From contig CAJCJD010000076.1 in the NCBI GenBank assembly GCA_903970555.1, forward strand, positions 1 through 64,000: DNA of 64,000 nt, given 5' to 3'. The position numbers were made by a program, and so were the translations under genes. This document shows positions 6,078 through 29,557 of the stretch, one piece after another (within the stretch, counting starts at the first letter, position 1; each line of letters opens with the position of its first letter). The DNA comes from Vulcanimicrobiota bacterium (GTDB lineage Bacteria; Pseudomonadota; Gammaproteobacteria; Xanthomonadales; Rhodanobacteraceae). The notes under the pieces are model-generated. The model made no database searches. It worked only from the letters and a program-made list of their open reading frames with translations, and was not told the DNA's origin.

Positions 6078-6163
6078 GGCATACCTCCGATGTATAGCTG
6101 TGGGGAGCGAGAGGTAGTCTAGCCAACCCGCAGCGCAACGGCGCTACGGGTCGACGTCCCTAG

Positions 6164-8861: not shown

Positions 8862-8913
8862 GCGGAGCGTCCGGAGTGGGAAGCCCCGCATCTTGCCACA
8901 GCGCCTATGACAG

Positions 8914-9378: not shown

Positions 9379-9550
9379 GGTGTTGCCTTTTCGAGGGGTG
9401 GACCAGGTCCGGACCCTACGATCCTGCGCCCTGCTGACTACCCATGCCAGTCCAAGATGAGAGACCGGCCCAGTTCCGGCTAAAATGGACGTTTCGGCGG
9501 TCCGGTTGGGCCGCCGCTTTGCTGCCCCATCATTTGGAGGATGCTGTCCC

Positions 9551-10564
9551 ATGGCCATCAAGGTCGCCATCAACGGTTACGGTCGCATTGGCCGCAATGT
9601 CCTGCGCGCGCTGTACGAATCCGGTCGCACGAACGAGTTCCAGATCGTCGCGATCAACGACCTCGGCAATGCCGAGACCAACGCGCACCTCACCCAGTAC
9701 GACACCGCCCACGGTAAATTCCCGGGCCAGGTGACGGTGGACGGCGGCGACCTGATCGTCAACGGCGACCGCATCAAGGTTTGCGCCGAGCGCGATCCGT
9801 CGAAGCTGCCCTGGGGCGAACTGGGCATCGACGTCGTGCTGGAATGCACCGGCCTGTTCACTTCCAAGGCCAAGGCCGGCGCGCATCTCGCTGCCGGTGC
9901 CAAGAAAGTGATCATCTCTGCCCCCGGCGACAAGGACGTGGACGGCACCTTCGTGTTCGGCGTCAACGACGACAAGATCACGGCGGCGCATCAGGTGATC
10001 TCCAACGCCTCCTGCACCACCAACTGCCTGGCACCGCTGGCCAAGGTGCTGCACAACAAAATCGGCATCGTGCACGGCCTGATGACCACGATCCACGCTT
10101 ACACCAACGACCAGGTGCTGACGGACGTCTATCACTCCGACCTGCGCCGCGCTCGCTCGGCCACGATGAGCCAGATCCCGACCAAGACCGGCGCCGCCGC
10201 GGCGGTGGGTCTGGTGCTGCCGGACCTCAACGGCAAGCTGGACGGTTTCGCCATGCGTGTTCCGACCATTAACGTGTCGGTGGTTGACCTGACTTTCGTC
10301 GCCGCACGCAACACCACCAAGGAAGAAATCGACGCCGCTATCAACGAAGCCGCCAATGGCGCGTTGAAGGGCATCCTGGCGGTGAACACCCAGCCGCTGG
10401 TGTCGGTCGATTTCAACCACAACCCGGCCTCCTCCACCTATGACGCCACGCAGACCCGCGTCATGGGCGGCACGCTGGTGAAGGTGCTGAGCTGGTACGA
10501 CAACGAGTGGGGTTTCTCCAACCGCATGTTGGACATGACCAAGGCGCTGATGGCGGCCAAGTAA
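9551..10564 (+). CDS. gap: Glyceraldehyde-3-phosphate dehydrogenase, type I
   Basis: 337 residues from the ATG at 9551 ([20 protein letters not shown]), with TTGGAGGA about 9 bases upstream. It oxidises glyceraldehyde 3-phosphate to 1,3-bisphosphoglycerate with NAD. The Rossmann motif NGYGRIGR is at 8-15, an Asp in INDLG near 37 favours NAD over NADP, the catalytic cysteine is Cys155 ([12 protein letters not shown]), the partner His182 is in [10 protein letters not shown], and the C-terminal [13 protein letters not shown] is intact. It is monocistronic: a strong terminator follows and no pgk is next to it. Confidence 0.97.
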
Positions 10565-10613
10565 GTACAACGCGTTCTCGCAGCCTAAGAGCGGCCATCT
10601 TCGGGTGGCCGCC

Positions 10614-10650
10614 AATAAAAAAGCCGGGCGGTGCGCCCGGCTTTTTTATT
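10614..10650. terminator. Bidirectional rho-independent terminator
   Basis: A 37-bp near-perfect palindrome: A-run, stem GCCGGGCG / CGCCCGGC with a GTG loop, and a T-run on the other side. It ends gap on the plus strand and tpx on the minus strand. A second hairpin (GCGGCCA / TGGCCGC, 10591-10612) lies just before it on the gap side. Confidence 0.93.
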
Positions 10651-10669
10651 GGATGACAACTTGTCGAGA

Positions 10670-11170
10670 TTATTTCAACACAGCGAGCGCCGCATCGTAA
10701 TTCGGCTCGTTGGCAATCTCTCCCACCAATTCGGTATGCAGCACCTTGTCATGCTCATCGAGCACGACCACCGCACGCGCGGCAAGCCCCGCCAACGGAC
10801 CAGACGCAAGCGCAACACCGTAGTGCTTGAGGAAGTCGTGCCCCCGCATGGTGGAGAGCGTGACGACGTTATTCAAACCTTCCGCGCCGCAGAAACGCGC
10901 TTGCGCAAAAGGCAGATCGGCCGAGATACACAACACGACGGCGTTGCTCAACTGGCTGGCTTGTTCGTTGAAGCGGCGCACCGAGGTGGCGCAGGTCGGC
11001 GTGTTGACGCTGGGGAAAATGTTCAACACCTTGCGCTTGCCATTGAAGCTGGCGAGCGTGGCATCAGACAGGTCTTTGGCGACAAGGCTGAAAGCAGGCG
11101 CGTGCTCGCCCACCGCAGGAAGATGGCCATCGACCTTGACCGGATTGCCCTTGAGAGTGACTTGGGACAT
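10670..11170 (-). CDS. tpx: Thiol peroxidase (atypical 2-Cys peroxiredoxin)
   Basis: 166 residues, full length for Tpx. It begins [15 protein letters not shown]. The peroxidatic cysteine is Cys60 in [16 protein letters not shown], the resolving cysteine is Cys94 in ARFCGAEGL, and the conserved [11 protein letters not shown] carries a third cysteine (81), matching the E. coli arrangement (61, 82, 95). It reduces hydrogen peroxide and lipid hydroperoxides, usually with thioredoxin. The start at 11170 has GGAG-like sequence upstream (AGGAGTTACCC). Single gene facing gap. Confidence 0.95.
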
Positions 11171-11252
11171 GGGTAACTCCTGACGTGTGTGAGAGATAGC
11201 TTGTGAAGATAGCGCCGATGCTCCGGCGCGTCACCTGCCCTCGCCCTCGACA

Positions 11253-12236
11253 TTATTTCAGCGGCGCAATCACTTGCTCGATGGCGCCGAAGATCGATGC
11301 ACCTTCGCCATCGGTTATGTCGATGCGAAGCGTGTCGCCGAACTTTAGAAATGGCGTGCTCGGCTTACCATCACGCAGCGCTTCCACTGTGCGCTGCTCG
11401 GCCAAACACGACGCGCCTTTGCTGGTGTCCTCATTGGCAATCGTGCCGGAACCGACAATGCTGCCGGCCGTAAGCGGCCGGGTCTTGGCAGCGTGAGCGA
11501 CAAGCTGCGCGAAGCTGAATTGCATATCCACGCCGCACTCGGCCTCGCCGAACCACTTGTCGTTCAACCATGTGCGCATCGGCAAATGCAACTTCTCGCC
11601 CTGCCATGCATCACCGAGTTCATCCGGAGTGACAAACACCGGCGAGAGCGCGGAGCGCGGCTTGGATTGCAGAAAACCAAAACCTTTGGCGAGTTCTGCC
11701 GGAATTAAACCACGCAGGCTGACGTCGTTGACCAGGCCTACCAACTGAATATGTTCAGCAGCTTGCTCGGGCGTGACCGCCATCGGCACATCGTCGGTCA
11801 CCACCACAACTTCCGCTTCGAGATCGATGCCGTATTCCTCGCTCGATACCACGACAGGATCGCGCGGCCCCAGGAAGCCGGCGCTCGTCGCTTGGTACAT
11901 CAACGGATCGACATAGAACGATTCGGGCACTTCCGCGCTGCGAGCACGGCGCACACGCGCCACGTGCGGCAGATATGCGCTGCCATCGACAAATTCATAA
12001 GCGCGCGGCAGCGGTGCGGCCAGCTTGGTCGAGTCCAGCGCGAAAGCACCTGCTGCTTTACCGGCGTTGAGCTCGTCCGACAACGCGTTCAAGCGCGGCG
12101 CGGTGTTGGACCAATCGTCCAACGCCGCCTGCAATGTCGCCGCAATGCCGGTGGCTTTCACGGCATGCTTGAGATCGCGACTGACGACGATCAACGTGCC
12201 ATCGCGTCCGCCTTCCTTGAGACTGCCCAGTTTCAT
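11253..12236 (-). CDS. Fumarylacetoacetate hydrolase-family protein
   Basis: 327 residues. Family motifs include the metal-binding EYGIDLEAEVVVVTDDVP (acidic residues near 140-150), GLVNDVSLRG, KGFGFLQSKPRSALSP and TAGSIVGSGTIANED. It lacks the long N-terminal domain of the animal enzyme. Placed beside hmgA, it most likely hydrolyses 4-fumarylacetoacetate to fumarate and acetoacetate, the last step of tyrosine breakdown; other family members act on acylpyruvates, so the context carries weight. It is downstream of hmgA on the same strand with a gap of about 100 bp, so co-transcription is likely. Confidence 0.9.
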   Translation of the reverse strand: MKLGSLKEGGRDGTLIVVSRDLKHAVKATGIAATLQAALDDWSNTAPRLNALSDELNAGKAAGAFALDSTKLAAPLPRAYEFVDGSAYLPHVARVRRARSAEVPESFYVDPLMYQATSAGFLGPRDPVVVSSEEYGIDLEAEVVVVTDDVPMAVTPEQAAEHIQLVGLVNDVSLRGLIPAELAKGFGFLQSKPRSALSPVFVTPDELGDAWQGEKLHLPMRTWLNDKWFGEAECGVDMQFSFAQLVAHAAKTRPLTAGSIVGSGTIANEDTSKGASCLAEQRTVEALRDGKPSTPFLKFGDTLRIDITDGEGASIFGAIEQVIAPLK

Positions 12237-12340
12237 GTATTTGCTCCGTTGGCCGCGTTCACGAGCGGCCTTTCACGTATTCGATTTGCGATGACGCATC
12301 TACGCGCCACCGGGTTACTTTGTCAGCGGGAAGCAACGCC

Positions 12341-13645
12341 TCATGGGCGCTCTGGATTGAAATGCTTGGCGATGCCCTGCCAGCACTTGTAGTAATCGTG
12401 CTGCAGCTGCGGCGCGTCGAGCGCCTGCTTGGTCGGATGGATCACATTGCGCGTCTCGAACATGAAGGCCATGGTGCCGGTGAGGTGATCGGGCTTGCTG
12501 ACATCGGCCGCGCTTGCCTTCTCGAAGCTCCCCGCATCGGGCCCGTGCCCACTCATGCAATTGTGCAGACTCGCGCCGCCCGGGGCGAAACCGCCGGCCT
12601 TGGCGTCGTACACACCTTCGATCAGCCCCATGAATTCGCTGGCGACGTTGCGATGGAAATACGGCGGACGAAACGTGTGCTCGGCCACCAGCCAGCGCGG
12701 CGGAAAGATCACGAAGTCGACATTCGCCGTGCCTGGCGTATCGCTGGGCGACGTCAGCACGGTAAAGATCGACGGATCGGGGTGATCCACACTGATTGAG
12801 CCGACAGTGTTAAAACGTGTCAGGTCGTATTTGTAGGGCGCGTAATTACCGTGCCAGGCCACCACATCCAGCGGCGAGTGATCGATGCGCGCGGTCCACA
12901 GTGCACCCTGGAATTTGTTGATCAGCTCGAAGTCGCCTTCGATATCTTCGTAGGCAGCGTGCGGTGTGAGGAAGTCGCGCGGCAACGCCATCGAGTTGGC
13001 GCCGATCGGGCCGAGATCCGGCAGGCGTAGCAGGCTGCCGAAATTTTCCGCGACATAGCCGCGCGCTTCGCTATCCAGCAGTTCGACACGGAAGCGTATG
13101 CCGCGCGGAATCACGGCAATCTCCAGCGGCTTGATATCCAGCACACCCAACTCGGTGGCGATGCGCAGGCGTCCTTGTTGCGGAACGATCAGCAATTCAC
13201 CATCGGCATCGTAGAAAAAGCGACCTTGCATCGAACGATTGGCCGCATAGATGTGGATGCCGCAACCGGCCTGCTCGGCAGGGCCACCGTTGCCGGCCAG
13301 CGTTACCAGACCATCGACAAAGTCGGTCGGCTTGGCCGGCATGGGCCACGGATCCCAGCGCAGTTGGTTAGGCGTGGCGGGGGCTTCGTCGAAGCGGTTA
13401 TGGAACGTGTCGTGCGGGCGCGGCTCGAATGGCTTGTGCATCGCTGCCGGACGGATGCGATACAGCCAACTGCGCTGATTACTATGCCGTGGCGCGGTGA
13501 ATGCGGTGCCGGAAAGCTGTTCCGCATACAGGCCATGCGCTACGCGCTGCGGCGAATTCTGGCCGGCAGGCAACACTCCGGGAATGGCCTCCGAAGCGAA
13601 TTCATTGCCGAAACCTGACTGGTATTCCTGTTTGCTTAGGGACAT
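12341..13645 (-). CDS. hmgA: Homogentisate 1,2-dioxygenase
   Basis: 434 residues from the ATG at 13645 ([20 protein letters not shown]), with GGAG seven bases upstream. It opens the aromatic ring of homogentisate to maleylacetoacetate using non-haem iron. Recognisable blocks are [43 protein letters not shown], and the iron-binding region [27 protein letters not shown] divided around its His/Glu residues near 335-345, then NCMSGHGPD near 370. Cytoplasmic. With hpd and the FAH-family gene it makes a tyrosine degradation cluster; a maleylacetoacetate isomerase gene was not found in the window. Confidence 0.96.
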
Positions 13646-13767
13646 GGAAGCTCCGCGACCTGCCGGCGCCCGAGGCGCACCGATGCCGATCCTATTACTC
13701 TTGACCACGCCTCGCTCATGGATTGAGGCGACACCTATCTAACTGCAACGACTGCAAAGGGGAAAAC

Positions 13768-14163
13768 ATGTCGGATCAATACGCTTCGTTAGGCCAAGCC
13801 ACCGCAAGCCACTCGATCAACGATCTCATCCAGCCGCTCGCATCGGGCAAAGGTTGGATGAAGTTCGTCGGCATCATGTTCATCATCCAGGGTGCCATTA
13901 CTGCCCTTACCATCGTCGGCATCCTTATCGCGTGGCTGCCGATTTGGATCGGCGTCCTGCTTGTGCAATCGGCCGGTGCCCTCGAACGCGCGCAACTCAG
14001 TGGCGATGCTTATGCCGTGAAGGAATCCTTGTCCAAACTCAGGACCTACTTCGTGATCCAGGGCGTACTGTTCCTGGTAAGCATTGCCCTCATGGTGCTG
14101 TATTTCATGTTCTTCGGCGCGATGTTCGCCACGATGATGAAACACGGCGGCTTCCCGCACTAA
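13768..14163 (+). CDS. DUF5362-like membrane protein
   Basis: 131 residues from the ATG at 13768, which follows AAAGGGGA. Two long hydrophobic segments (near 34-70 as FVGIMFIIQGAITALTIVG plus ILIAWLPIWIGVLLV, and near 95-122 as FVIQGVLFLVSIALMVLYFM) are joined by a polar helix LERAQLSGDAYAVKESLSKL. This layout resembles DUF5362 inner-membrane proteins of unknown role. It lies on the opposite strand between hmgA and hpd, so it is probably not part of the tyrosine pathway. Confidence 0.72.
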   Translation: MSDQYASLGQATASHSINDLIQPLASGKGWMKFVGIMFIIQGAITALTIVGILIAWLPIWIGVLLVQSAGALERAQLSGDAYAVKESLSKLRTYFVIQGVLFLVSIALMVLYFMFFGAMFATMMKHGGFPH

Positions 14164-14173
14164 GCAGCATATC

Positions 14174-14206
14174 TGGCGTGGCTGTCTGCAACGGACGGCC
14201 ACGCCA
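14174..14206. terminator. Hairpin between convergent genes
   Basis: TGGCGTGGC-T-GTC pairs with GAC-G-GCCACGCCA around a short loop, just after the stop of the DUF5362-like gene and before the stop of hpd. No clear T-run; a bidirectional hairpin is likely. Confidence 0.6.
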
Positions 14207-14212
14207 AACGCC

Positions 14213-15307
14213 TTACAGTACGCCGCGCCTCATCTGGTCGCGCTCGATCGATTCGAACAGCGCCTGGAAATTACCTTCGCCAAAACCCTCGTTGCCCTTG
14301 CGCTGGATGATCTCGAAGAAGATCGGGCCGATGTTGTTCTGCGTGAAGATCTGCAGCAGCTTGCGCTGCTTGGTCTCCGGATCGGCGTCGATCAGGATCT
14401 TGTTTTTGGCCAGGCGCGGCACATCTTCGCCATGGTTGGGAATGCGCATATCGATCACGTCGAAATACGTATCGGGCGTATCGAGGAATGCCACGCCCTT
14501 GGCGCGCATCGCCTCCACCGTGTCGTAGATGTTGTCGGTGAAGCAGGCGATGTGCTGGATGCCTTCGCCGTGATACGCGTCGAGGTATTCGTTGATCTGG
14601 CTCTTCGGATCGTTCGACTCGTTGAGCGGAATACGCACGACGCCGTCCGGTGCGGTCATCGCCTTCGATACGAGCCCGGTCTTGGCGCCCTTGATGTCGA
14701 AGTAGCGGATCTCGCGGAAGTTGAACAGGCGCTCGTAGTAATCGGACCACTTCTGCATGTTGCCGAAGTAGAGGTTGTGCGTAAGGTGATCGATGAAGGT
14801 CAAACCGAAACCGGCCGGATTCTGGTCCGCATCGGGGATCGGCGCATAGTCGCCGTCGTAGATGCTGCCCGCGTTGCCGTAACGATCGATCAGGTAAAGC
14901 ATGCAATCGCCGATGCCTTTCACGACCGGCGCATTCACCGCCTTCGTCTCGGCCTTGTCGAGCGACGCGTCGCCGCCGTTGCCCAACACCGTCTTGAGCA
15001 CTTCCGCCGCGGGCTTCTTGAAGCGGATCGCAAAACCGCAGGCACTCGGGCCGTGCTTGGCGGCAAAGTCGGCAGCGAAGGAATTGGGATCTTCGTTGAC
15101 CAGGAAATTCACGCCGCCCTGGCGATACACCGTGATCGGGCGACTCTTGTGCTTGAGCACGGCCGTGAAGCCCATGTTCTTGAACAAGGCGTGCAACTCG
15201 CCACCTCGGGCGCCCGGTGCGGCAAACTCGACGAATTCGAACCCGTCGATACCCATCGGGTTCTCGAAGGTGGTGACCTGCATGCCGAGGTTGGGTTGGG
15301 CGTTCAT
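14213..15307 (-). CDS. hpd: 4-Hydroxyphenylpyruvate dioxygenase
   Basis: 364 residues. The enzyme converts 4-hydroxyphenylpyruvate to homogentisate with oxygen and Fe(II). The N-terminal domain shows MGIDGFEFVEFAAP and the C-terminal catalytic domain shows FIDHLTHNLYFG (first iron His), GIQHIACFTDNIYDTV (second His) and GPIFFEIIQRKGNEGFGEGNF (iron-binding Glu and the C-terminal gate). It is divergent from a MarR-type regulator gene, and the shared region contains a promoter with an internal palindrome, so expression is probably repressed until an aromatic ligand binds the regulator. Confidence 0.96.
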   Translation of the reverse strand: MNAQPNLGMQVTTFENPMGIDGFEFVEFAAPGARGGELHALFKNMGFTAVLKHKSRPITVYRQGGVNFLVNEDPNSFAADFAAKHGPSACGFAIRFKKPAAEVLKTVLGNGGDASLDKAETKAVNAPVVKGIGDCMLYLIDRYGNAGSIYDGDYAPIPDADQNPAGFGLTFIDHLTHNLYFGNMQKWSDYYERLFNFREIRYFDIKGAKTGLVSKAMTAPDGVVRIPLNESNDPKSQINEYLDAYHGEGIQHIACFTDNIYDTVEAMRAKGVAFLDTPDTYFDVIDMRIPNHGEDVPRLAKNKILIDADPETKQRKLLQIFTQNNIGPIFFEIIQRKGNEGFGEGNFQALFESIERDQMRRGVL

Positions 15308-15391
15308 GGCGCGCTCCTGATCTAGTCGATGCGTTCAAGCCGATGCGCGACGACTGCTACGGCAGCGTGCCACCATCGGGATAAGGACCAC

Positions 15392-15420
15392 GTTATAGTT
15401 ACATATGAAACTAATTGCAA
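15392..15420 (-). promoter_or_regulatory. Probable sigma70 promoter of hpd
   Basis: On the minus strand TTGCAA (15420-15415) and TATAAC (15397-15392) are separated by exactly 17 bp, a good sigma70 match, placing the transcription start about 100 bp upstream of the hpd start codon. The spacer is filled by the palindrome described separately. Confidence 0.65.
15396..15413. promoter_or_regulatory. Probable MarR-family operator
   Basis: TAGTTACATATGAAACTA is an 18-bp palindrome with one mismatched symmetric pair (arms TAGTT-CATATG-AACTA), of the size and symmetry bound by MarR-family dimers. It occupies the spacer between the -35 and -10 elements of the hpd promoter and lies about 20 bp upstream of the preferred start of the marR gene, so one bound dimer could control both directions. 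Confidence 0.65.
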
Positions 15421-15434
15421 GGAACACTGCCGCA

Positions 15435-15899
15435 ATGCCCAACCCCCGCAAGCCCGCCCCGGTCGGCGCCGAACATGCCCCCTTGGAGCTGGAACACTTC
15501 CTGCCCTACCGGCTATCGATCCTCTCCAACACGGTGAGCCAGGCCATCGCGGACGACTACCAGCAACGGTACGACCTCAGCGTGACGGAATGGCGAGTGA
15601 TGGCGGTGCTGGCCCGTTTCCATGGCCTGTCCGCGCGGGAAGTGGCTGAACGCACGGCCATGGACAAAGTGGCCGTGAGCCGCGCCCTGGCCCGACTGGT
15701 GGAAGCCGGGCGGGTACACCGCGAGACGCATGGCAACGACAAACGACGCTCGGTATTAAGCCTTACCGAGGCCGGCTGGCTTATTCACGATGATGTGGCA
15801 CCGATGGCGCGTGCTCGCGAACGCGAAGTGTTGGCAAAGCTGGATGCCGAAGAGCAGCAGTGGCTGACGCAGATTTTGGACAAGCTGCTGGCGCATTAA
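15435..15899 (+). CDS. MarR-family transcriptional regulator of the hpd region
   Basis: 154 residues from the ATG at 15435, which has AAGGA 11 bases upstream. An in-frame ATG at 15405 lies inside the operator/-10 region and is probably upstream of or at the transcription start, so the shorter form is preferred. The winged-helix region is clear: VTEWRVMAVLARFHGLSAREVAERTAMDKVAVSRALARLVEAGRVHRE broken as helix-turn-helix plus wing (NDKRRSVLSLTEAG). It is divergent from hpd, and many such pairs respond to aromatic acids; a role as repressor of hpd and of itself is inferred from position. Confidence 0.88.
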   Translation: MPNPRKPAPVGAEHAPLELEHFLPYRLSILSNTVSQAIADDYQQRYDLSVTEWRVMAVLARFHGLSAREVAERTAMDKVAVSRALARLVEAGRVHRETHGNDKRRSVLSLTEAGWLIHDDVAPMARAREREVLAKLDAEEQQWLTQILDKLLAH

Positions 15900-15928
15900 A
15901 CCGCAGCGTCTGTCGCTTCGCGCCCCAT

Positions 15929-15972
15929 CTTTTGCTCGTCATTTCGGCCAGCGCCGGAATGACGAGCAAAAG
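15929..15972. repeat. Long palindromic intergenic element
   Basis: CTTTTGCTCGTCATT pairs with AATGACGAGCAAAAG, extended inward by CGGC/GCCG, giving a stem of about 20 bp. Its inner core (GTCATTTCGGCCAGCGCCGGAATGAC with a mismatch) is the same motif as in the repeats near 17.6 and 20.9 kb. It separates the convergent marR and POT genes; with A and T runs at its ends it could also terminate both. Confidence 0.7.
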
Positions 15973-15976
15973 GGTG

Positions 15977-17485
15977 TTACTTCACGCCGTGCATCAGGCG
16001 ATTGATCAACGGCGAAACCAACAGCAACAGCACACCGGCGCCAGCCAGCAACCAGAAGCTGAAGGTGAAACCACTTAGCGCCGAGGCGGCAGTCATTCCG
16101 TTTTCACCGCTGATGTGTCCAGCCAATAGGCCCGACAAGTTGCCGCCCACGGCCAGCGAGAGAAACCATCCACCCATCGCAAGGCCGACCAAACGCGGCG
16201 GCGCCAGCTTGGTCACCATCGACAGGCCGATCGGCGACAGGCATAGCTCACCCACTGTCTGCAGCACGTAACACGCGGTCAACGGCCAGAACGGAATCAA
16301 GCCATGCAAGTCGATCAACCGCGATAACGCATACATCAACACCAGGAAACCGAGCCCGTTAAAGATGAGGCCCAAGCCGAACTTACGCGGAATCGACGGT
16401 TCTTTATGCCGCTTTGCCAGATATGCCCACACCAGCGACACCAACGGCGCCAACACGATGATCGCCAGCGGGCTCACGGACTGGAACCAGCCCACCGGAA
16501 ATTCCCAGCCGCCGAACATCTTGCGATCAACCATGTTTTCGGCGAGGAAATTGAATGACGTGCCGAGCTGGAAATAGAACATCCAGAACAACAAGTTGAA
16601 CGCGAAGATTATCAGCATCGCGATCACGCGCTGTACCTGCACAGTGTCGTGACGCACGGCCTCCACGATCAACATTGTCGCCACACCGATAAACAACAGG
16701 CCGAGCAACCACTGCAAGCCGATGGCGCCGATCTTCGATAGCAGCAGATACACCACCGGCACAGCCACCACGACACCCACGAATACCCACAGCACGCGCA
16801 AGCGGCTGGACGCACCTGGCGCCGGGCGGCCTACGCCGCGCAGGCCACGTCGACCGAACCAGAACCACAACAGGCTCAACACCATGCCGACGCCCGCCGC
16901 CGCGAACACCAAGCGATAGTTCTGCTGCAATGGCGTGTCGGTGAAGTAGCTGGCCAGCCAGCCGGTGAGCAACGGCGCCACGAACGCGCCGCCATTGATG
17001 CCCATGTAGAACAGCGTAAAGCCGCGATCGCGCCGCTCATCTTTCGGGCCATATAACTGACCGACCATCGATGAGATGTTTGGCTTGAACAAGCCATCGC
17101 CCACGACCACCATCGCCAAGCCATAAAGCATGGCCTGCTGGCTTGGCAGCATGATCGTGAACAAGCCGACCGACATAACCAGCGCACCGAGCAGAATCGA
17201 GCGCTGGTAGCCAATAAGCTTGTCGGCGATGTAGCCGCCGAAAATGCCGGTGGCATAGATCAAGGCCGTGTACGCACCGTAGATCTTGCTGGCCCATGCC
17301 TGCCCGGAAGGGTCGCCATGGTAGAACTGCGCCACGATGTATAGCGCAAGCGCCCAGCTAACGCTGTAGAACGCGAAGCGCTCCCAGAACTCGGTCATGA
17401 AAAGCATCCACAACGGACGCGGATGACCGAGCATCTGCGGAAAGTCAGGCGCGCTATCGACGCCGGCTTCGAGACTTTGGCTCAC
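15977..17485 (-). CDS. POT-family proton-dependent oligopeptide transporter
   Basis: 502 residues with about 12-14 membrane helices. The N-terminal MTEFWERFAFYSVSWAL contains the E-x-x-E-R-type motif of POT/PTR2 symporters (here EFWERF), followed by IYGAYTALIYATGIFGGYIAD and the PTR2 signature region FTLFYMGINGGAFVAPLLTGWL split over helices 4-5. It imports di- and tripeptides with protons across the inner membrane. Members of the longer peptide transporter group of Xanthomonadales also show such C-terminal motifs (CLSPIGLSMVTKLAPPRLVG). Single gene; the region upstream holds a repeat and the kynA stop. Confidence 0.93.
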   Translation of the reverse strand: MSQSLEAGVDSAPDFPQMLGHPRPLWMLFMTEFWERFAFYSVSWALALYIVAQFYHGDPSGQAWASKIYGAYTALIYATGIFGGYIADKLIGYQRSILLGALVMSVGLFTIMLPSQQAMLYGLAMVVVGDGLFKPNISSMVGQLYGPKDERRDRGFTLFYMGINGGAFVAPLLTGWLASYFTDTPLQQNYRLVFAAAGVGMVLSLLWFWFGRRGLRGVGRPAPGASSRLRVLWVFVGVVVAVPVVYLLLSKIGAIGLQWLLGLLFIGVATMLIVEAVRHDTVQVQRVIAMLIIFAFNLLFWMFYFQLGTSFNFLAENMVDRKMFGGWEFPVGWFQSVSPLAIIVLAPLVSLVWAYLAKRHKEPSIPRKFGLGLIFNGLGFLVLMYALSRLIDLHGLIPFWPLTACYVLQTVGELCLSPIGLSMVTKLAPPRLVGLAMGGWFLSLAVGGNLSGLLAGHISGENGMTAASALSGFTFSFWLLAGAGVLLLLVSPLINRLMHGVK

Positions 17486-20877: not shown

Positions 20878-20952
20878 TCGTCGTCCCGGCGAAAGCCGGG
20901 ACCCAGCGCCTAGAACAACGACACTGGATCTCGGCTTTCGCCGGGATGACGA
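20878..20952. repeat. Palindromic repeat inside the E1-E2 operon
   Basis: The arm starting TCGTCGTCCCGGCGAAAGCC (20878) is matched by an inverted copy ending near 20952 (reverse complement TCGTCATCCCGGCGAAAGCC), with a short unrelated centre. It is the same family as the elements near 15.95 and 17.6 kb and occupies most of the 112-bp gap between the E1 beta stop and the E2 start. It would form a stable RNA hairpin inside the operon transcript. Confidence 0.8.
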
Positions 20953-20975
20953 CAACAGAATTTACGGGAATCATC

Positions 20976-22349
20976 ATGGCCGACATCAAGACGTTCTACC
21001 TGCCGGACCTCGGCGAGGGCCTGCCCGACGCCACCATCGTCGAATGGCATGTCAAAGAAGGCGACAGCATCAAGCTCGACGCACCGCTCGTGTCGATGGA
21101 AACCGCCAAGGCGGTGGTCGACGTGCCTTCACCGTACACCGGCAAGGTCACCAAGTTGCATGGCGCCACTGGCGACGTGATCGAAACCGGCGCCGCACTG
21201 GCCGAATTCGAGCCCGACCCGAATGCCAAGCAGCGCGCCGAAGCAGAAGCCACCGGCCATCATCATGGCCCGAAGAAAGCCGCTACGCCGGAACCGAAGA
21301 AAGTCGTCGCTTCCGATGAAGGCGGTGAAATCGAAAGCGAAGGCAAAGCCGATCGTGAAGACGAAGGCACTGTAGTTGGCGCAATGATCAGCGGCAGTCA
21401 TGTGCATGTCGAACAGGCATCCAGCGTCGGTGGCGTGAAAGCCGTGCCGGCTGTGCGCGCATTGGCGAAGAAGCTCAAAGTGGACATCACTCGCGTGCGC
21501 CCGAGCGGCGCCGATGGTGTGGTGACCATGCAGGACGTGAAAAACGCCGCCGCTAACGGTTCGGCCGCACTCGGCTCTGCGCCGGCGCGCGCTGCGCCTG
21601 CTTCGGCCGGTCGCCACCTCGCTCCCGAGCTGCCGCAGCCAGAGCCTGCACGCACAGCTACGTCGCTTGCCGGCAAGCCAGTACGCACGGCGCCGCCGAG
21701 CGTGCAAGCAAGCGGGCAGCCGGAGCAGCTCAAGGGTGTTCGCCGCAACATGGCCCGCGTGATGGCCGACGCGCACGCCAACGTGGTTCCGACCACGCTG
21801 GTAGATGACGCCGATCTGCATGCATGGATCGGCAAGCAAGACATCACCGCGCGCTTGATTCGTTCCATTGTCGCGGCATGCAAAGCCGTTCCCGCGCTCA
21901 ACGCGTGGTTCGACGGCAAGAACCTCACCCGCACACTGCATCCGCATGTGGATATCGGTATCGCGGTCGACACGGATGACGGTCTTTTCGTGCCCGCACT
22001 GCGCAACGCCGACGTGCTCGACGGCGCCGGCATTCGTGCCGGCATCAAGCGCCTGCGCACGCAGGTGGAAGACCGTACGATTCCTTCGTCGGAACTGTCC
22101 GGCTACACCATCAGCCTGTCCAACTTCGGCATGTTCGCCGGCCGCTATGCAACACCCGTGGTCGTGCCGCCGTGCGTGGCCATCATCGGCGCCGGCAAGC
22201 TCAGCCACGACGTGGTTGCAGTGATGGGCGGTATCGAAGTACATCGCCGTATGCCGATCAGCATCACGTTCGATCACCGTGCTGCGACGGGTGGTGAAGC
22301 GGCGCGCTTCCTTAAGGCACTCCTGGATGATTTGGCATTGCCGAACTGA
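20976..22349 (+). CDS. 2-Oxo-acid dehydrogenase E2 (dihydrolipoyl acyltransferase)
   Basis: 457 residues from the ATG at 20976 (MADIKTFYLPDLGEGLPDA). One lipoyl domain (about 1-80) with the lipoylated lysine Lys45 in SMETAKAVVDVPSP; a charged linker; a peripheral subunit-binding domain near 160-195 (VRALAKKLKVDITRVRPSG, then DGVVTMQDV); an Ala/Pro-rich linker; and the acyltransferase domain (LKGVRRNMARVMADAHANVV to the end). The active-site His434 is in TFDHRAATGGEAARFL, where the Asp usually found four residues after His is Thr438. No E3 gene follows; a strong terminator does. The acyl substrate (acetyl or branched-chain) is not settled. Confidence 0.92.
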   Translation: MADIKTFYLPDLGEGLPDATIVEWHVKEGDSIKLDAPLVSMETAKAVVDVPSPYTGKVTKLHGATGDVIETGAALAEFEPDPNAKQRAEAEATGHHHGPKKAATPEPKKVVASDEGGEIESEGKADREDEGTVVGAMISGSHVHVEQASSVGGVKAVPAVRALAKKLKVDITRVRPSGADGVVTMQDVKNAAANGSAALGSAPARAAPASAGRHLAPELPQPEPARTATSLAGKPVRTAPPSVQASGQPEQLKGVRRNMARVMADAHANVVPTTLVDDADLHAWIGKQDITARLIRSIVAACKAVPALNAWFDGKNLTRTLHPHVDIGIAVDTDDGLFVPALRNADVLDGAGIRAGIKRLRTQVEDRTIPSSELSGYTISLSNFGMFAGRYATPVVVPPCVAIIGAGKLSHDVVAVMGGIEVHRRMPISITFDHRAATGGEAARFLKALLDDLALPN

Positions 22350-22571: not shown

Positions 22572-23441
22572 ATGCGGCGACTCCCCCCACTCATCGCCCT
22601 ACGCTTTTTCGAAGAAACCGCTCGTCACTGCAGCTTCAATCGTGCGGCGGCCGCGCTGTGCGTGACACAAAGCGCAGTCAGCCGCCAGATCCGGATTCTG
22701 GAAAGCACGCTGGACACACAACTCTTCGAGCGCAATCACCACGGCGTGCACCTCACAGCGTCGGGCGCACAGCTTCTCACATGCATATCCGGAGCATTCG
22801 ATGCGATCGAGCAAGGCACCCGCCGTCTCGCACGCACTCACAACCGCGAAAAACTGATATTGGCTGCACCACCGACGTTCGCCACCCAATGGCTTTCGCC
22901 CCGGCTCGAATCACTTATCACCCAGCTTCCGGATATCGAGCTGTCGGTGCGCACGACTTCACGCGGAGATGAACACTGCTGCATCCGATTCGATCGCCGA
23001 CCGCCGCACGGCCACCCGACAGAACTGCTATGGATGGAGCAACACGTCCTTGTAGGTGCCACACAGCGAGCCGGTCAACCCTTGGAAGCACTGATTGAAC
23101 AGCTACCAGCCATGCACATCCTGCACGAAGGAAAGCGTCTCGACCTTTGGCCTGACTGGCTAGCAAGCGCAGGATTTACGAGCGATGATGTGGGTAGCGC
23201 CATCGAACTCTCTACCTTGGAACAGGCCATCCAAGCTGTGCGCAAGGACGCTGGCCTGGCGATCATCGACTACAACATGATCGCCGATGAGCTGCGCGAA
23301 GAACAGTTAGCCATGCTCTCGCCCATCGAAGTCAGTGGACCGTACGGCTACTGGCTCGATATACCTCCCCAGCATGCCGCATCCAACTCCGTGCAAACAT
23401 TCGCGACGTGGGTGCGTGATCAGGTTCGCCGCTCCGGCTAA
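22572..23441 (+). CDS. LysR-family transcriptional regulator
   Basis: 289 residues. The N-terminal winged helix is clear: ALRFFEETARHCSFNRAAAALCVTQSAVSRQIRILE split over its helices, then LFERNHHGVHLTASG. The effector domain follows (LILAAPPTFATQWLSPRLES, IRFDRRPPHGHPTELLWMEQ), closest in look to the GcvA subgroup. The start MRRLPPLIALRFF follows AAGGATCCCACC. It is convergent with, and next to, the operon of transporter, aldehyde dehydrogenase, aldo/keto reductase and Fae homologue, which it might control; the position (at the far end of that operon) makes this uncertain. Confidence 0.92.
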   Translation: MRRLPPLIALRFFEETARHCSFNRAAAALCVTQSAVSRQIRILESTLDTQLFERNHHGVHLTASGAQLLTCISGAFDAIEQGTRRLARTHNREKLILAAPPTFATQWLSPRLESLITQLPDIELSVRTTSRGDEHCCIRFDRRPPHGHPTELLWMEQHVLVGATQRAGQPLEALIEQLPAMHILHEGKRLDLWPDWLASAGFTSDDVGSAIELSTLEQAIQAVRKDAGLAIIDYNMIADELREEQLAMLSPIEVSGPYGYWLDIPPQHAASNSVQTFATWVRDQVRRSG

Positions 23442-23466
23442 GTCATGGCTCATCCATGACTTAGCC
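23436..23466. terminator. Hairpin between lysR and the MFS gene
   Basis: A perfect 13-bp stem (GGCTAAGTCATGG / CCATGACTTAGCC) with a 5-base loop begins over the lysR stop codon and lies just before the stop of the convergent transporter gene. No T-run, so probably a bidirectional 3' hairpin. Confidence 0.65.
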
Positions 23467-23476
23467 GTGGCGCCAC

Positions 23477-24890
23477 TTAGGCTTTGGCCGCGTCGTTAAG
23501 GCATAAATTTCGTGTTTCCGGCGCCCATGCCATTGACACCACCATACCGATCACCAATACCGCAGCCAGCACCATCATCGACATCTGCAGACCAAACGTT
23601 TTGATGCCGATCGGCAGGAGAAATACGCCGATGGCTGAGCCAAGGCGACTGCAGGCGATGGCAAACCCCACACCACACGCACGCACCTCGGTAGGGAAAC
23701 ACTCCGGTGGATACACCCCGACCAGATTGGATACAGCCGACAACGTCGCCGTAAACAACGCAAAGGCGGCAACCATAGCTATCGAGGCCGAATCCGGCAG
23801 CAAGCTCAGCATGGCCAGCGCAGCGGCAGTCACCGCGAAGGAAGCGATCAGAAACACACGCCGCGGCAACTTGATCGTCAACCAGATACCAACAATTGCT
23901 CCGGCGATCAACAAGCCGTTCAGCAGCAAGTCGGCATTGCTGCCATCCGATAGCTTGATCAGCTTGAGAATGTCCGGAAGGAACGTGTAGATCGCAAAGT
24001 ACGGGATCACCAGGCACACAAAGAATACGCAATTGAACAATGTACGCTTGATCAGATCACGCTGGAAAAGACGCCCAAACCCACCCGGCATGTTGCGATG
24101 ATCATCGCCTTGCACACTGGTATCCAGCACGACCTTCTGGCCGAAATGCTTTTTCACAATGGCATCTGCCTCCGCCTCGCGCCCTTTGTTAAACAGCCAG
24201 CGCTGGCGACTCCGGGGTGCCCATGCGCAGAACAAGCACGATCAGGGCCGGTACTCCAGCGGACGCCAGCAACCAGCGCCAAGCATCCGGATCCGACGAA
24301 TACTGCACGTAGTGAATACCTAAGAGATCGGCCACCACGTAACCAATCGTCCATATCACGCTAAACGAGCCCAACAGCATGCCGCGATGCTTACGCGGCG
24401 AGAACTCGGCAAGAATGGCGTGCCCCACAGCGAAGTCGCCGCCCATGCCCACGCCCAACAGTACGCGCAACAAACATAACGTCAACGGTGTTTGAGCATA
24501 GAACTGCGCGAACGCCGTGGCCGTGATAATCACAAAGCTCAACAAAAAAATCTTCTGCCTGCCCAAGCGATCGGATAACCAGCCGAATAGCAAGCTTCCA
24601 AGAAAAATGCCCATCAAGGTGGAGCAACCAATAAGGCCCTCCCATAGCGCGCGATGCTCTGCGTGAACACCGATCATCTGGTCCAGCAACGGCTTCAATG
24701 CGTACGCGATCGTCCCTATCGCGAAGCCCTCGGTCAAATGCGCACCAAAGGTGAGGCCGGCAATCTTGCAATGGAAGAAGTTCAAGGGCACGTCGTCGAG
24801 CAGAACCTTCACCTCCGACGATTCCTGTCGCTTGCCGGTATATCCGACCAATCCTTCTACGGTTGCTGCTTGTCCATCTCCGCTGCCCAT
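23477..24890 (-). pseudogene. MFS transporter, frameshifted near 24203
   Basis: The reading frame starting at the ATG at 24890 (GGGAG 6 bases upstream) encodes MFS helices 1-6 (LFGWLSDRLGRQKIFLLSF, RVLLGVGMGGDFAVGHAILA split, SPRKHRGMLLG) and ends early at 24189 after GTPESPALAV. The remaining half (PYFAIYTFLPDILKLIKL, VYPPECFPTEVRACGVGFA) continues in another frame to 23477. Removing one base at about 24203, in CCAGCGCTGG, restores GTPESPRWLFNKGREAEAD, which is the expected junction in this family. So one base is inserted. The cause is either a real inactivating mutation or a sequencing error. Last gene of the fae-akr-aldh operon; substrate unknown (metabolite:proton symporter type). Confidence 0.85.
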
Positions 24891-24943
24891 GTTTACTCCC
24901 TTCCCTTGCATGGACGCCGACGTCGCCCGTGTCATTCGCTTCG

Positions 24944-26380
24944 TTATTTCAAACCGCCCATCATCAGGTACTTCAATTCGACGTATTCATCGAGTCCGTA
25001 CTTGGAACCCTCGCGTCCAAGACCCGATTGCTTCACGCCGCCAAAGGGAGCCACCTCGGTTGAGATGATTCCTTCGTTGATGCCGACCATGCCGCTTTCC
25101 AGCGCTTCGGCGACGCGCCATGTGCGCGCTATCGCGCGGGTGTAGAAGTACGCCGAAAGACCGAACGGTGTGTTGTTGGCGGCGGCAATGACTTCTTCTT
25201 CGGTTTCGAAGCGAAAACATGCCGCTACTGGCCCGAAGGTTTCTTCCTGCGCGATCAGCATGTCGTGCGTAGCATCGATCAGCACGGTCGGCTCGTAGAA
25301 CGTGCCGCCCAGTGCGTGCGGCTTGCCGCCGGCAATAACCTTCGCGCCCTTGCTCAATGCGTCCGCGACGTGACTCTGCACTTTGTCCAAGGCGGCGCGG
25401 TTGATCAGAGGGCCTTGGTCGAACTCGCCCGCCAACGCATCGCCGACGCGCAACTTGCGCACGGCTTCGGCCAGAGCCTGCGTGAAGGTGTCGTACACAC
25501 CGCTCTGTACATAGAAGCGATTTACACAAACGCAGGTTTGCCCAGTATTGCGGAATTTCGAAGCGATGGCGCCGCGCACTGCCGCCTCAATATCGGCATC
25601 GTCGAACACGATGAAGGGGGCGTTACCGCCTAACTCGAGCGAAAGCTTCTTCAACGTGTCCGCGCATTGCGTGGCCAGCAGTTTGCCGGTACGAGTCGAA
25701 CCCGTGAACGACAGCTTGCGCACGACATCCGAGCCAGTAAGTACTTTGCCGATGGATAGCGCGTCGCCGGAAACAATGTTGAAAACGCCCTGCGGTATGC
25801 CTGCCTGCTCGGCAAGTACGGCTAATGCGAGCGCCGACAAGGGTGTTTCTTCCGATGGTTTCAATACCATGGTGCAGCCGGCCGCGAGTGCAGGCGCTGC
25901 TTTGCGAGTGATCATGGCGAGCGGGAAATTCCATGGCGTGATAGCCGCAACCACACCGACCGGCTCGCGCGTGACCAAGATCTTCGAGTTGGGGAAGGGG
26001 CTGGGAATCACATCGCCGTAGCCGCGCTTGGCTTCTTCCGCAAACCATTCGAAGAAGCTCGCTGCGTAGCCAACTTCACCGCGTGCCTCGGCGAGCGGTT
26101 TGCCCTGTTCGCGGCTCAGCAATTCCGCCAAGGCGTCGCGGTGTTCAAACATCAGCTCGCCCCAGCGGCGAACCTTGATACTGCGCTCTTTTGCCGTTAG
26201 CGCGCGCCAACCGGGAAATGCATCGGAAGCCGCAGCGACCGCCTGCTCCGCCTCGGCAGCGCCGCCCTTCGCCACGTTGGCAATGACGTCGCCCGTAGCG
26301 GGATTGCTGACGGGATAGGTTTCCGAACCCGTAAGCCACTTGCCGCCTATGTAATGCCCGTTACGCAGAAGATCATTCAT
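24944..26380 (-). CDS. gabD: NAD(P)-dependent succinate-semialdehyde dehydrogenase-type aldehyde dehydrogenase
   Basis: 478 residues, full length. Motifs of the aldehyde dehydrogenase superfamily: ITPWNFPLAMITRKAAPALA, KPSEETPLSA, FTGSTRTGK, the catalytic Glu in LELGGNAPFIVFDDAD (near 255) and the catalytic Cys in RNTGQTCVCVNRFYVQ (near 290), and QEETFGPVA. FFEWFAEEAKR and the C-terminal EGIISTEVAPFGGVKQSGLGREGSKYG (in part) are characteristic of the GabD subfamily. The true substrate in this operon may be another semialdehyde. Its start overlaps the stop of the aldo/keto reductase by four bases. Confidence 0.9.
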   Translation of the reverse strand: MNDLLRNGHYIGGKWLTGSETYPVSNPATGDVIANVAKGGAAEAEQAVAAASDAFPGWRALTAKERSIKVRRWGELMFEHRDALAELLSREQGKPLAEARGEVGYAASFFEWFAEEAKRGYGDVIPSPFPNSKILVTREPVGVVAAITPWNFPLAMITRKAAPALAAGCTMVLKPSEETPLSALALAVLAEQAGIPQGVFNIVSGDALSIGKVLTGSDVVRKLSFTGSTRTGKLLATQCADTLKKLSLELGGNAPFIVFDDADIEAAVRGAIASKFRNTGQTCVCVNRFYVQSGVYDTFTQALAEAVRKLRVGDALAGEFDQGPLINRAALDKVQSHVADALSKGAKVIAGGKPHALGGTFYEPTVLIDATHDMLIAQEETFGPVAACFRFETEEEVIAAANNTPFGLSAYFYTRAIARTWRVAEALESGMVGINEGIISTEVAPFGGVKQSGLGREGSKYGLDEYVELKYLMMGGLK

Positions 26381-27414
26381 GCCGCGCCCTCCTCTACCGC
26401 TGCGAATCGCCCGGTTGCGGCGCGAGGTTCGCGTGCAATGCGCTGACCGGCTGTGTAATCGTTGATAAGATCGCAGGGCGTATAGTTGCGTTCCAGCTCG
26501 TGTAGCTCTTGCGCATCAAGGCGCGTTTCAAGTGCTGCCACTGCGCTATCAAATTGCTCGGCTGTGTCCGCACCGACCAGCATGCTTGCAATGTTTTGGT
26601 GCTGCAGCACCCAAGCCTGAGCAATCTGTGCTGCTGACACGCCGCGCCGCGCGGCCACGCGCGCTGCGGAGACAGCGATTTCGCGTGACGCTTTATCGCC
26701 ATACATCTGTGCGGTAAAGAAATCCGTTTGATTGCGGGTGGAATTCGCATCACAGGAGAGCAAGCCACGTGCGAGCGGACTGAACACAGATACGCCAACA
26801 CCTTGGTCGGCACAGTAGGGAATCATTTCCCGCTCTTCCTCACGGTAGGCGAGGTTGAGCTGCAGCTGCATGTTGATCGGCTTGTGCCAACCATTGCGTT
26901 CACAGACATGCATGATCTTGGCCAGCTGCCACGTGTACATGGTCGAGACACCGATGTAGCGCGCCTTACCGGCTCGCACGATATCGTTCATCGCACCCAT
27001 GGTCTCTTCAACTGGCGTATTGACGTCGAAGAAATGCAGCATGTAGATATCGACGTAGTCCATATCCAGTCGCCTCAGCGAGCCGTGGATACCGTCCATG
27101 ATGTGTTTGCGCGAATGGCCCCCCGCATTGGGATAGACGCCCATGTCGTAGCCGACCTTGGTCGTTATGACGATCTCTTCGCGGCGCACGAGTCTATTGA
27201 GAATTCGGCCGACCACCTCTTCGCCCATGCCAGTCGAATAAAAGTCCGCCAGATCGATGAAGTTGACGCCGGCGTCCAGCGCATGCCGCACGATGGGCTC
27301 GCTCTGCGCTTCGTCGAAGATCCACGGCTTCCAACGGGGTGTACCCATGTTCATGGTGCCGAGACAAAGGCGGGACACTTTCAGGCCTGATTGGCCAAGA
27401 CGAACATATTCCAT
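26377..27414 (-). CDS. Aldo/keto reductase (YajO-like)
   Basis: 345 residues forming an AKR TIM barrel. It starts MEYVRLGQSGLKVSRLCLGTMNMG. The catalytic tetrad is visible: Asp and Tyr in FIDLADFYSTGMGEE, Lys in VITTKVGYD, His in YMLHFFDVNTPVEET. The NADPH-site end SMLVGADTAEQF is present. The pattern GKARYIGVSTMYTWQ and AYREEEREMIPYC is closest to E. coli YajO and related oxidoreductases. Second gene of the operon, 29 bp after fae, overlapping the dehydrogenase gene by 4 bp. Natural substrate unknown. Confidence 0.9.
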   Translation of the reverse strand: MEYVRLGQSGLKVSRLCLGTMNMGTPRWKPWIFDEAQSEPIVRHALDAGVNFIDLADFYSTGMGEEVVGRILNRLVRREEIVITTKVGYDMGVYPNAGGHSRKHIMDGIHGSLRRLDMDYVDIYMLHFFDVNTPVEETMGAMNDIVRAGKARYIGVSTMYTWQLAKIMHVCERNGWHKPINMQLQLNLAYREEEREMIPYCADQGVGVSVFSPLARGLLSCDANSTRNQTDFFTAQMYGDKASREIAVSAARVAARRGVSAAQIAQAWVLQHQNIASMLVGADTAEQFDSAVAALETRLDAQELHELERNYTPCDLINDYTAGQRIAREPRAATGRFAAVEEGAA

Positions 27415-27443
27415 GCGGCGAACTCCCTTTCTTCTGACGCTGC

Positions 27444-27965
27444 TTAGGCTTTTGGCGTGTAAAACGGATTGCTTACGTTGGCCGCCGCCGCAAACACTTC
27501 GTCGCGACGTGGAAGACCGAGCATGGCCGCGCGGATCGCGTTCTTGCAGGCTTGATAGTTGTTCTCGTACACGGCATCGAGATTGTCGGCGGCAGGATTG
27601 ACCCAGTTGGCCGATACCACGACCCAGTCGTTTTCCGCTTCCGGCGGCAGAACACCCTCTTCCAGTGACTCAGCAACTGCCTTGGCGATGCCTGCCTGCG
27701 ATGCACCCCAGGTTGCGTTGCCGTGGAAGTCGCCAGCGATCTGGGCTTTATTGACATACAGCGTCAACGGCTTGGTGGGCACGCCCGGCGTGGCGATGAT
27801 CACGAAGGGGGCGTGTCCTGCCGAAGGCGTTGCCAATGCGGTGGCAAAAGCCTGACCTGCCGGGCCGCTGCGCGGGCCGACCAATACGTTGATATGCGCG
27901 AGGTTGACGCCCGGACCGACGAATCCTTCGCCGATATAGAGTGTCTTGCTTTCGGTTGTGCTCAT
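27444..27965 (-). CDS. fae: Formaldehyde-activating enzyme (Fae) homologue
   Basis: 173 residues, the usual length of Fae. In methylotrophs Fae joins formaldehyde to tetrahydromethanopterin. The family core is all here: YIGEGFVGPGVNLAHINVLV with the catalytic His24 (His17 of the Methylobacterium enzyme), then VGPRSGPAGQAFATAL, KPLTLYVNKAQI, GASQAGIAKAVAESLEEGVL and NNYQACKNAIRAAMLG. First gene of an operon with an aldo/keto reductase, a semialdehyde dehydrogenase and an MFS transporter, with no methanopterin genes nearby. It may therefore act with another cofactor or as an aldehyde-binding protein; that part is inference. Confidence 0.93.
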   Translation of the reverse strand: MSTTESKTLYIGEGFVGPGVNLAHINVLVGPRSGPAGQAFATALATPSAGHAPFVIIATPGVPTKPLTLYVNKAQIAGDFHGNATWGASQAGIAKAVAESLEEGVLPPEAENDWVVVSANWVNPAADNLDAVYENNYQACKNAIRAAMLGLPRRDEVFAAAANVSNPFYTPKA

Positions 27966-28171
27966 TTCATTGCCGCCATCAGAAAACAGTCGATGACCCG
28001 ATTGTGCTGTCGTGACGGCACACAGGAGAATGGATGTTTCCTGATAAGCGGTATGACTAAAGCGCAGGGCTTGGAGTGCGGCAATTCCTACAAAACGTCG
28101 TCGCGCTAAATGGGCACGCGTTGCGCCACGGCATCTAACGACAGTCTGCTGATGATGGCGGCGGGCGATTG

Positions 28172-29557
28172 TCAGCCAGCGTCTGTTGCTGACTGCATTC
28201 CAGGCAACTGCATCGTCACGTCCAATCCGCCATCCGCGCGATTTTGCGCGTCGACTTCACCACCATGCACTTGCATGACACGTTGCACTATCGCGAGGCC
28301 AAGCCCATGGCCGCCCGCGTGCACCGCATTGGTGCCTCGATAGAAAGGCCTGAACAACAAGCTCAGTTCTTCGGTCGGGACGCCGGGGCCATGATCGCGA
28401 ATGCGTATTTTGGCCTGATGCTGGACGGCGCTGACTTCCACATCGACGGATCCATTTTCGGGGCTGAATTTGATCGCGTTGGCGATCACGTTATCCAGCG
28501 CGCGTTCCAGCAGGATGCCACTGCCAAAGACCGTTACTGGTTCGGCGTCGGCCATCTTTAGCTGAATGCCGCGCGCTTGCGCCTCGACACGCGCCGCACC
28601 GAGGCGCGATCGGGTGAGCTCGGTGAGATCCACGGGCTCGCGCTCCATGCCTGGCAGGCCACCTTCAAGTCGCGACAGCGCCAACATTTCTGCTGTCATG
28701 CGATCCATGCTTCCGATTTCCTGCTCGGCATGCTGGAAATGTTTGGCTGCTTCCTTCGGATCCTTACTGTGTTGGGCCAGATCGAGAATCAGATGCAAGC
28801 GCGCGAGCGGCGAGCGCAATTCGTGCGACAGGTCCTGTAAAACACCGCGATCATGCGCAACCAGCAACTCGATGCGTTCGGCCATGCTGTTGAAATCCCG
28901 CGCAAGCTGGCCGAGCTCGTCATGAGCGGCGCTCCAACGTTGGTCGACGCGCGTAGCGAATTCGCCCGCCGCCATCTTGCGCGTGGCCGCACGCATCGCG
29001 TCAACCGGACGCGATACGCTACGCGCCACCCACCAGCCGATGGCGCCGATCAACAGCAATGAAAGCGCCAGTTGCACGAGAAGCAAAATCTTCTCGCGCG
29101 CGCGTGGCGGAATACGCGAACGCGAACTGCTTACCGCCACGAATTGCCGCTGATGTCCGTCGCTGCCAGTGACCTGTTGTACGGCGATGTAGAAGCCAGG
29201 CCATGGATTCAATTCGACGTTGTGCCCGGAGGCAAGCCAGTCTGGCAATGACTCGCGCATCACGGACGGCAGGCGTATGTCGCGCAAGGGTGTCCCGTTC
29301 TCGTAAAGCGTCGCGTCGACACCTCCCTCGCGCTGTTGCCGCACCCATGCATCGAGCCCGTTCGCACCGCCTGTGTCATACGCTTGCTCGGCTGCCTGTG
29401 CGAGCGCGGGCCAATCGATGTCCTGCTCTGCCGTGTACGCGATGAAGCTACGAGTTAACGCGCCTCCCAACAGCAAGACCACAAGGTTGGCAATGCAGAA
29501 GAAGATCAACAGGCGCCAGAACAGCGGGCTGCGGAACGGGCTCTTGAATGTGTTCAC
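28172..29557 (-). CDS. cpxA: CpxA-like sensor histidine kinase
   Basis: 461 residues. Layout: membrane helix near 15-35, periplasmic sensor domain about 36-160, second helix near 163-185, HAMP domain (WVARSVSRPVDAMRAATRK, ending near 240), histidine box LQDLSHELRSPLARLH, and ATPase domain with N box (LDNVIANAIKFSPENG), G1 (RDHGPGVPTEE) and G2 (GGHGLGLAIVQR). The start overlaps the cpxR stop by four bases, so the two are coupled. CpxA-type kinases sense envelope protein misfolding. Identification as Cpx rather than another OmpR-partner kinase is supported by the divergent cpxP-like gene and the CpxR box upstream. Confidence 0.88.
   Translation of the reverse strand: MNTFKSPFRSPLFWRLLIFFCIANLVVLLLGGALTRSFIAYTAEQDIDWPALAQAAEQAYDTGGANGLDAWVRQQREGGVDATLYENGTPLRDIRLPSVMRESLPDWLASGHNVELNPWPGFYIAVQQVTGSDGHQRQFVAVSSSRSRIPPRAREKILLLVQLALSLLLIGAIGWWVARSVSRPVDAMRAATRKMAAGEFATRVDQRWSAAHDELGQLARDFNSMAERIELLVAHDRGVLQDLSHELRSPLARLHLILDLAQHSKDPKEAAKHFQHAEQEIGSMDRMTAEMLALSRLEGGLPGMEREPVDLTELTRSRLGAARVEAQARGIQLKMADAEPVTVFGSGILLERALDNVIANAIKFSPENGSVDVEVSAVQHQAKIRIRDHGPGVPTEELSLLFRPFYRGTNAVHAGGHGLGLAIVQRVMQVHGGEVDAQNRADGGLDVTMQLPGMQSATDAG

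Follow-up and report, generated by a model that had tools for sequence, protein, structure and literature searches.

A conserved cassette pairing a divergent Fae-family protein with an aldo/keto reductase and a succinate-semialdehyde dehydrogenase, very probably outside the tetrahydromethanopterin pathway

The Fae cassette and its genes

The window analysed here, a stretch of 64,000 nucleotides on contig C76 of a Dyella-like metagenome assembly (4.53 Mb, 247 contigs, 91.7% complete), carries on its minus strand a cassette led by a homologue of formaldehyde-activating enzyme (Fae), which in methylotrophs couples formaldehyde to tetrahydromethanopterin (H4MPT). The Fae-family gene (PF08714; 27444..27965, an open reading frame (ORF) of 173 amino acids) belongs to a divergent clade, and most of the genomes that carry it gave no Mch match. 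It is followed, after a gap of 29 bp, by an aldo/keto reductase (AKR, PF00248; 26377..27414), recognized from its ORF and Pfam match and having DepB (8hwn) as its nearest solved relative, and then, with an overlap of 4 bp, by a GabD-like succinate-semialdehyde dehydrogenase (SSADH; 24944..26380). An earlier note, written from the letters of this DNA, had described a full-length Fae-family protein with His24 in the motif NLAHINVLVGP, the AKR 29 bp behind it and an overlapping dehydrogenase, and both the ORF coordinates and the family scores agree with that description.

The same note placed a transporter last in the series. A gene of the major facilitator superfamily (MFS) does follow the SSADH from position 24935, but it is not a single ORF in the window: the N-terminal half (24189..24935, minus strand) ends where its frame stops at 24189, and the C-terminal half (23477..24235, minus strand) lies in a different frame, so that the gene is split near 24189-24235. 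In all eight other loci of the genus the matches to these halves run on without a break in a single frame, so the split is an assembly error or a recent mutation. From the spacing of the genes we infer that Fae, AKR, SSADH and MFS are co-transcribed; a sigma-70 promoter scan of 23300-28300 found none.

Family, fold and conserved residues of the Fae-family protein

Membership in the Fae family is clear from both PF08714 (171 bits, cut-off 27) and TIGR03126 (148 bits, cut-off 118). The AF2 model of the window protein has a moderate mean pLDDT of 71.7, and all five PDB matches with E below 0.001 are Fae proteins, with a large root-mean-square deviation of 5-6 Å; in Foldseek the model matches Methylobacterium extorquens Fae (1y5y/1y60) with an E value of 1.7e-11 and a TM score of about 0.7. 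His24 aligns with His22 of the M. extorquens enzyme, which we take to be the catalytic residue. The dN/dS ratio against 11 relatives is 0.03-0.12, a rough estimate as dS is mostly near or above 1, and indicates strong purifying selection. A chance ORF is ruled out by this ratio together with the family scores, and the gene order also recurs in tens of species.

The alignment of Fae proteins has 118 rows, which were grouped by locus number on the basis of their identities, and includes 84 window-type rows, in which the window itself occurs twice. Identity to M. extorquens Fae is 29-31% in the window-type rows and 70-95% in 22 canonical rows, while two distant rows from Ensifer and Streptomyces have 29 and 41%. 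His24, Thr68, Asn72, Lys73, and Gln90 are identical in 84/84 window-type and 23/23 canonical rows. At least five other positions separate the groups, with N26, H81, W86, W121, and N166 fixed in all 84 window-type rows against D, Q, F, F, and H in all 23 canonical ones (Asp24, Gln79, Phe84, Phe119, and His164 in the numbering of M. extorquens Fae), and the window clade thus lacks the canonical residue at each. The row with 60% identity to M. extorquens Fae (L148) has the canonical residue at all five, and the Ensifer and Streptomyces homologues, which are also near an SSADH gene, share all five replacements of the window clade. Compared with canonical Fae (M. extorquens, EC 4.2.1.147), the window type therefore shares family, fold and the His and Lys/Gln/Thr core, but differs in its low identity, its fixed replacements, its AKR/SSADH cassette and its genomic background, most of its host genomes having given no Mch match.

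A tree of the family, which the earlier note had proposed as a check, was built from 66 of the 118 rows and places the window protein in a clade separate from canonical Fae. Three groups are recovered: the canonical one including M. extorquens, a divergent clade lacking the His, and the window clade, in which Ensifer and Streptomyces are included. As a whole, the window clade has a support of 92/89, on long branches and with a bootstrap that had not settled. In the His-less clade (L126, L127, L165-L170), Met or Glu replaces the His in 8/8 rows; seven of the eight genomes carry a further Fae scoring 225-236 bits, and in the eighth this score is 212 bits. This clade presumably corresponds to the published Fae2/Fae3 proteins, such as that encoded by fae3 of Methyloversatilis universalis, which, like the window type, are divergent Fae paralogues with an unsettled role. 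According to PMC5023235, Fae3 is a distant homologue whose deletion causes no growth defect on C1 compounds. If the two are the same, the window clade differs from Fae2/Fae3 in keeping the His.

Markers of the H4MPT pathway

Mch, Ftr, and Mpt_N were not found in the window genome or in the eight other Fae-bearing members of its genus, a search that did not extend to methanopterin biosynthesis genes. Incompleteness could hide genes in the window assembly; two of these nine genomes (G003, G009) are listed as single contigs. When 15 genomes of Burkholderiaceae with window-type Fae are added to the nine, Mch is present in five of 24 and Ftr in the same five. The 19 genomes without either have exactly one Fae match each, of 160-171 bits; the five with Mch (G048, G049, G050, G052, G053) have two or three, and the canonical one (231-234 bits) lies 2.0-2.4 kb from mch. 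A second set of 52 genomes has Mch in 17, with G301 counted as a carrier of the window type by the score of its third Fae copy only (170 bits). Over both sets Mch is present in 22/76 genomes and not found in 54/76, or at most 75 distinct genomes since G374 and G825 are apparently one; completeness is not given for genomes reached through their loci. Of 25 genomes tested for Mpt_N, 23 lack it; the two that carry it are the two with Mch and serve as the positive control, since it was found in 0/14 control genomes.

A glutathione-dependent formaldehyde dehydrogenase is encoded elsewhere in the window genome (736 bits, cut-off 544), so formaldehyde has another route. Since no Mch, Ftr, or Mpt_N was found and the Fae gene is tied to AKR, SSADH, and usually MFS genes across genera, the window protein very probably acts outside the H4MPT pathway. 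This was the central idea of the earlier note, which had held that a complete methanopterin pathway elsewhere in the genome would make the cassette an ordinary methylotrophy module; that explanation is rejected here because these three markers were not found. Its further proposals, a possible sugar-derived route and import of the substrate by the transporter, stay tentative.

Conservation and spread of the cassette

Scanning genomes with an alignment of seven Fae sequences gave 292 relatives, and the counts of loci refer to the best 80 of these. SSADH is present at 70% identity or more in 80/80 loci and AKR, at the same threshold, in 79/80. The exception, the locus of an uncultured Paraburkholderia symbiont (L038, a metagenome-assembled genome (MAG), 8998-13116), has a full-length Fae and partial matches to AKR (51%), SSADH, and MFS. 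The C-terminal half of the MFS protein (at least 50%) is found in 72/80 loci; the eight without it are L041, L059, L065, L081, L082, L089, L091, and L101, of which L082 ends there. The 4-bp overlap between AKR and SSADH recurs in 59 of 83 loci (the 80 with L161, L162, and L014). No constant neighbour beyond the cassette genes was found in the 80 loci, and the cassette may thus be chemically self-contained.

Within the genus, PF08714 is found in 9/16 genomes, including that of the window; the 25 genomes sampled alongside from other genera have none. The window cassette lies between a sensor histidine kinase gene (28172..29557, minus strand) and a PDH E2-like gene (20946..22349, plus strand), which border the insertion site in genomes of the genus with or without the cassette. 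In the eight other loci, Fae-AKR-SSADH-MFS is likewise bordered by this histidine kinase, paired with a response regulator, on one side and by the PDH E2 gene on the other. In 7/7 genomes without Fae, the corresponding locus holds the kinase and E2 genes at a distance of about 0.05 to 4.5 kb from each other, and 16 kb of sequence gives no cassette match. The cassette was thus acquired or lost as a whole.

Convergent to the cassette, and absent from the account in the earlier note, is a LysR-family regulator gene (22572..23441, plus strand). A relative on the opposite strand (at least 50%) is found in 43/80 loci, downstream within about 3 kb in 42 (14 of them within 600 bp) and upstream in one (L078); in the genus it is found in two of nine loci, those of the window and L021. 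The regulator is a loose partner of the cassette.

The window Fae clade is patchy, as in a sample of 369 genomes of the class (E 1e-30) only the copy of the window itself was recovered. In a sample of 398 genomes of the phylum, Fae was found in 23 and the window type confirmed in five (the window genome, G199, G219, G374, and G376). G219 and G199, which belong to two other families, both have the cassette: G199 in the gene order of the window with no LysR match, and G219 (L161) in the order MFS-Fae-AKR-SSADH with a divergent LysR gene of 35% identity. In G376 the transporter has no match. Among 72,556 plasmid records, 68 contain Fae-like matches, and the eight at 80-90% identity are all from Burkholderia or Caballeronia. 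The window Fae is 83-88% identical to the Burkholderiaceae rows, which in a poorly resolved part of the tree are nested within Dyella rows; transfer of the cassette Fae between Dyella and Burkholderiaceae, in one direction or the other, is likely.

Partner enzymes

The dehydrogenase, called GabD-type in the earlier note, scores above the cut-off of the SSADH subfamily model TIGR01780 (697 bits, cut-off 646) and below that of the stricter GabD equivalog PRK11241 (712 against 828 bits). It is 60% identical to Escherichia coli GabD (3jz4) and retains the catalytic Cys, the Glu, and two Arg presumed to bind succinate semialdehyde. The scores and retained residues make succinate semialdehyde a likely intermediate of the cassette route. 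Unlike GabD, the window enzyme is encoded together with Fae and AKR, and the cassette has no apparent transaminase gene.

A reductase also accompanies Fae and SSADH in the most distant copies. Ensifer (L014) has the order AKR-Fae-SSADH with a LysR gene of 29% identity on the same strand. On a plasmid of Streptomyces clavuligerus (L013, 7979-12778), an OpuAC-type transporter gene and Fae are followed, after 0.8 kb, by a reductase of the 3-hydroxyisobutyrate-dehydrogenase type and SSADH; the nearest solved structure to this reductase is 2-hydroxymethylglutarate dehydrogenase (3cky). That SSADH and Fae are accompanied by a reductase, whether an AKR or, as in Streptomyces, one of unrelated fold, suggests an alcohol/aldehyde step.

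Interpretation and alternatives

The best explanation, with about an even chance of being right, is that the window protein is an H4MPT-independent Fae paralogue whose target is a carbonyl compound, and that the cassette, acquired or lost as a whole, encodes a route with succinate semialdehyde as an intermediate. In such a route, the MFS protein would move a small carbonyl or hydroxy compound derived from plants or soil, and the AKR would interconvert its alcohol and aldehyde. The Fae-like protein, keeping the fold and the His/Lys/Gln/Thr core and working without tetrahydromethanopterin, would attach formaldehyde or a related small aldehyde to a non-H4MPT partner, or detach it; the resulting C4 semialdehyde would be converted to succinate by the SSADH, and any released formaldehyde would be passed to the glutathione-dependent dehydrogenase. 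Here we infer catalysis by Fae, the order and direction of the steps, and the substrate.

Several observations weigh against this explanation. The specificity of the AKR is not readable from its sequence, and the genes flanking the cassette give no hint of a pathway. The transporter is not constant, being missing in eight loci and in G376, nor is the LysR gene, which adjoins the cassette in only 14 of 80 loci and is present in two of nine in the genus. The Streptomyces reductase differs in fold and is separated from fae by 0.8 kb. The window protein also scores above the cut-off of the TIGR03126 equivalog, so that H4MPT activity in vitro is possible, and Mch is present in 22 of the 76 genomes with window-type Fae. 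The last two points, with the kept His, the PF08714 match, and the incomplete window genome, would suit a conventional H4MPT-dependent Fae, with a pathway or cofactor that either escaped detection or is scavenged; this is nevertheless highly improbable, as Mch, Ftr, and Mpt_N were found in none of the nine Fae-bearing genomes of the genus, two of them single contigs, and the five Mch-bearing genomes in which Fae copies were counted hold a separate canonical Fae close to mch.

The main rival to a catabolic route is carbonyl detoxification, a possible though doubtful explanation in which the Fae-like protein would trap or detoxify formaldehyde with tetrahydrofolate or another amine, the AKR and SSADH would detoxify other aldehydes, and the MFS protein would export. 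A reductase, a dehydrogenase, and a formaldehyde-family protein together suit this function, and in PMC10994693 detoxification is suggested for 12 soil MAGs that have fae and no further methylotrophy genes; against it, the genome already has a glutathione-dependent formaldehyde dehydrogenase, and the cassette dehydrogenase is a GabD-type SSADH above a curated cut-off. It is unlikely that the protein is instead a non-catalytic carbonyl-binding or regulatory component of the operon on a Fae fold. Another clade of the family lacks the His in every row, and a formaldehyde sensor of another kind, EfgA, is described in PMC8153426, but the five core residues of the window clade are unchanged throughout its 84 rows.

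A more specific and highly improbable version has the Fae-like protein as a formaldehyde lyase of carbon metabolism. It would split formaldehyde off a hydroxymethyl-substituted C4 semialdehyde, a compound resembling 2-(hydroxymethyl)-4-oxobutanoate that the AKR would produce, and so leave succinate semialdehyde as the substrate of the SSADH. The weak lead for this version is the similarity of the Streptomyces reductase to 2-hydroxymethylglutarate dehydrogenase; if true, the Fae fold would gain a new reaction, and the route would need no pterin.

Relation to published work

The window protein belongs to a known family. The literature searched yielded no description of the conserved cassette that encodes it, and the function proposed here is putative. 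The parts available of PMC8153426, PMC5023235, PMC8879981, PMC10994693, PMC3763247, and PMC7356819 contain no description of a Fae-AKR-SSADH cassette, nor was one found among the matches listed; as subscription literature was mostly outside the search, absence from print is unproven. A Fae relative in soil bacteria, in a conserved cluster and without detectable partner enzymes, points to an undescribed job for the family. A widespread H4MPT-free clade would mean that a Fae match alone is misleading in metagenomes, and would mean a second chemistry for the Fae fold, testable with one small defined cassette that is present in cultivable soil bacteria such as Dyella and Paraburkholderia.

Flanks of the cassette in other genomes

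Flanking genes were considered as a clue to the pathway and rejected, as the loci scanned have no common theme. In Burkholderiaceae the flanks include RF3, a beta-lactamase-family protein, an usher, H-NS, and DUF3422. In the distant copies they are a glnS-type synthetase, a phosphotransferase system (PTS), and nagA-like genes (G219), an Orn/Lys/Arg decarboxylase and a permease (G199), or ABC transporters (Ensifer). The G219 cassette (4435-16127) lies between the glnS-type tRNA synthetase gene and the PTS/nagA-like cluster, an arrangement that resembles the enterobacterial nag locus; E. coli DNA has no match to the G219 gene. In Streptomyces clavuligerus, an NRPS/PKS (nonribosomal peptide synthetase/polyketide synthase) gene lies about 8 kb from the Fae region.

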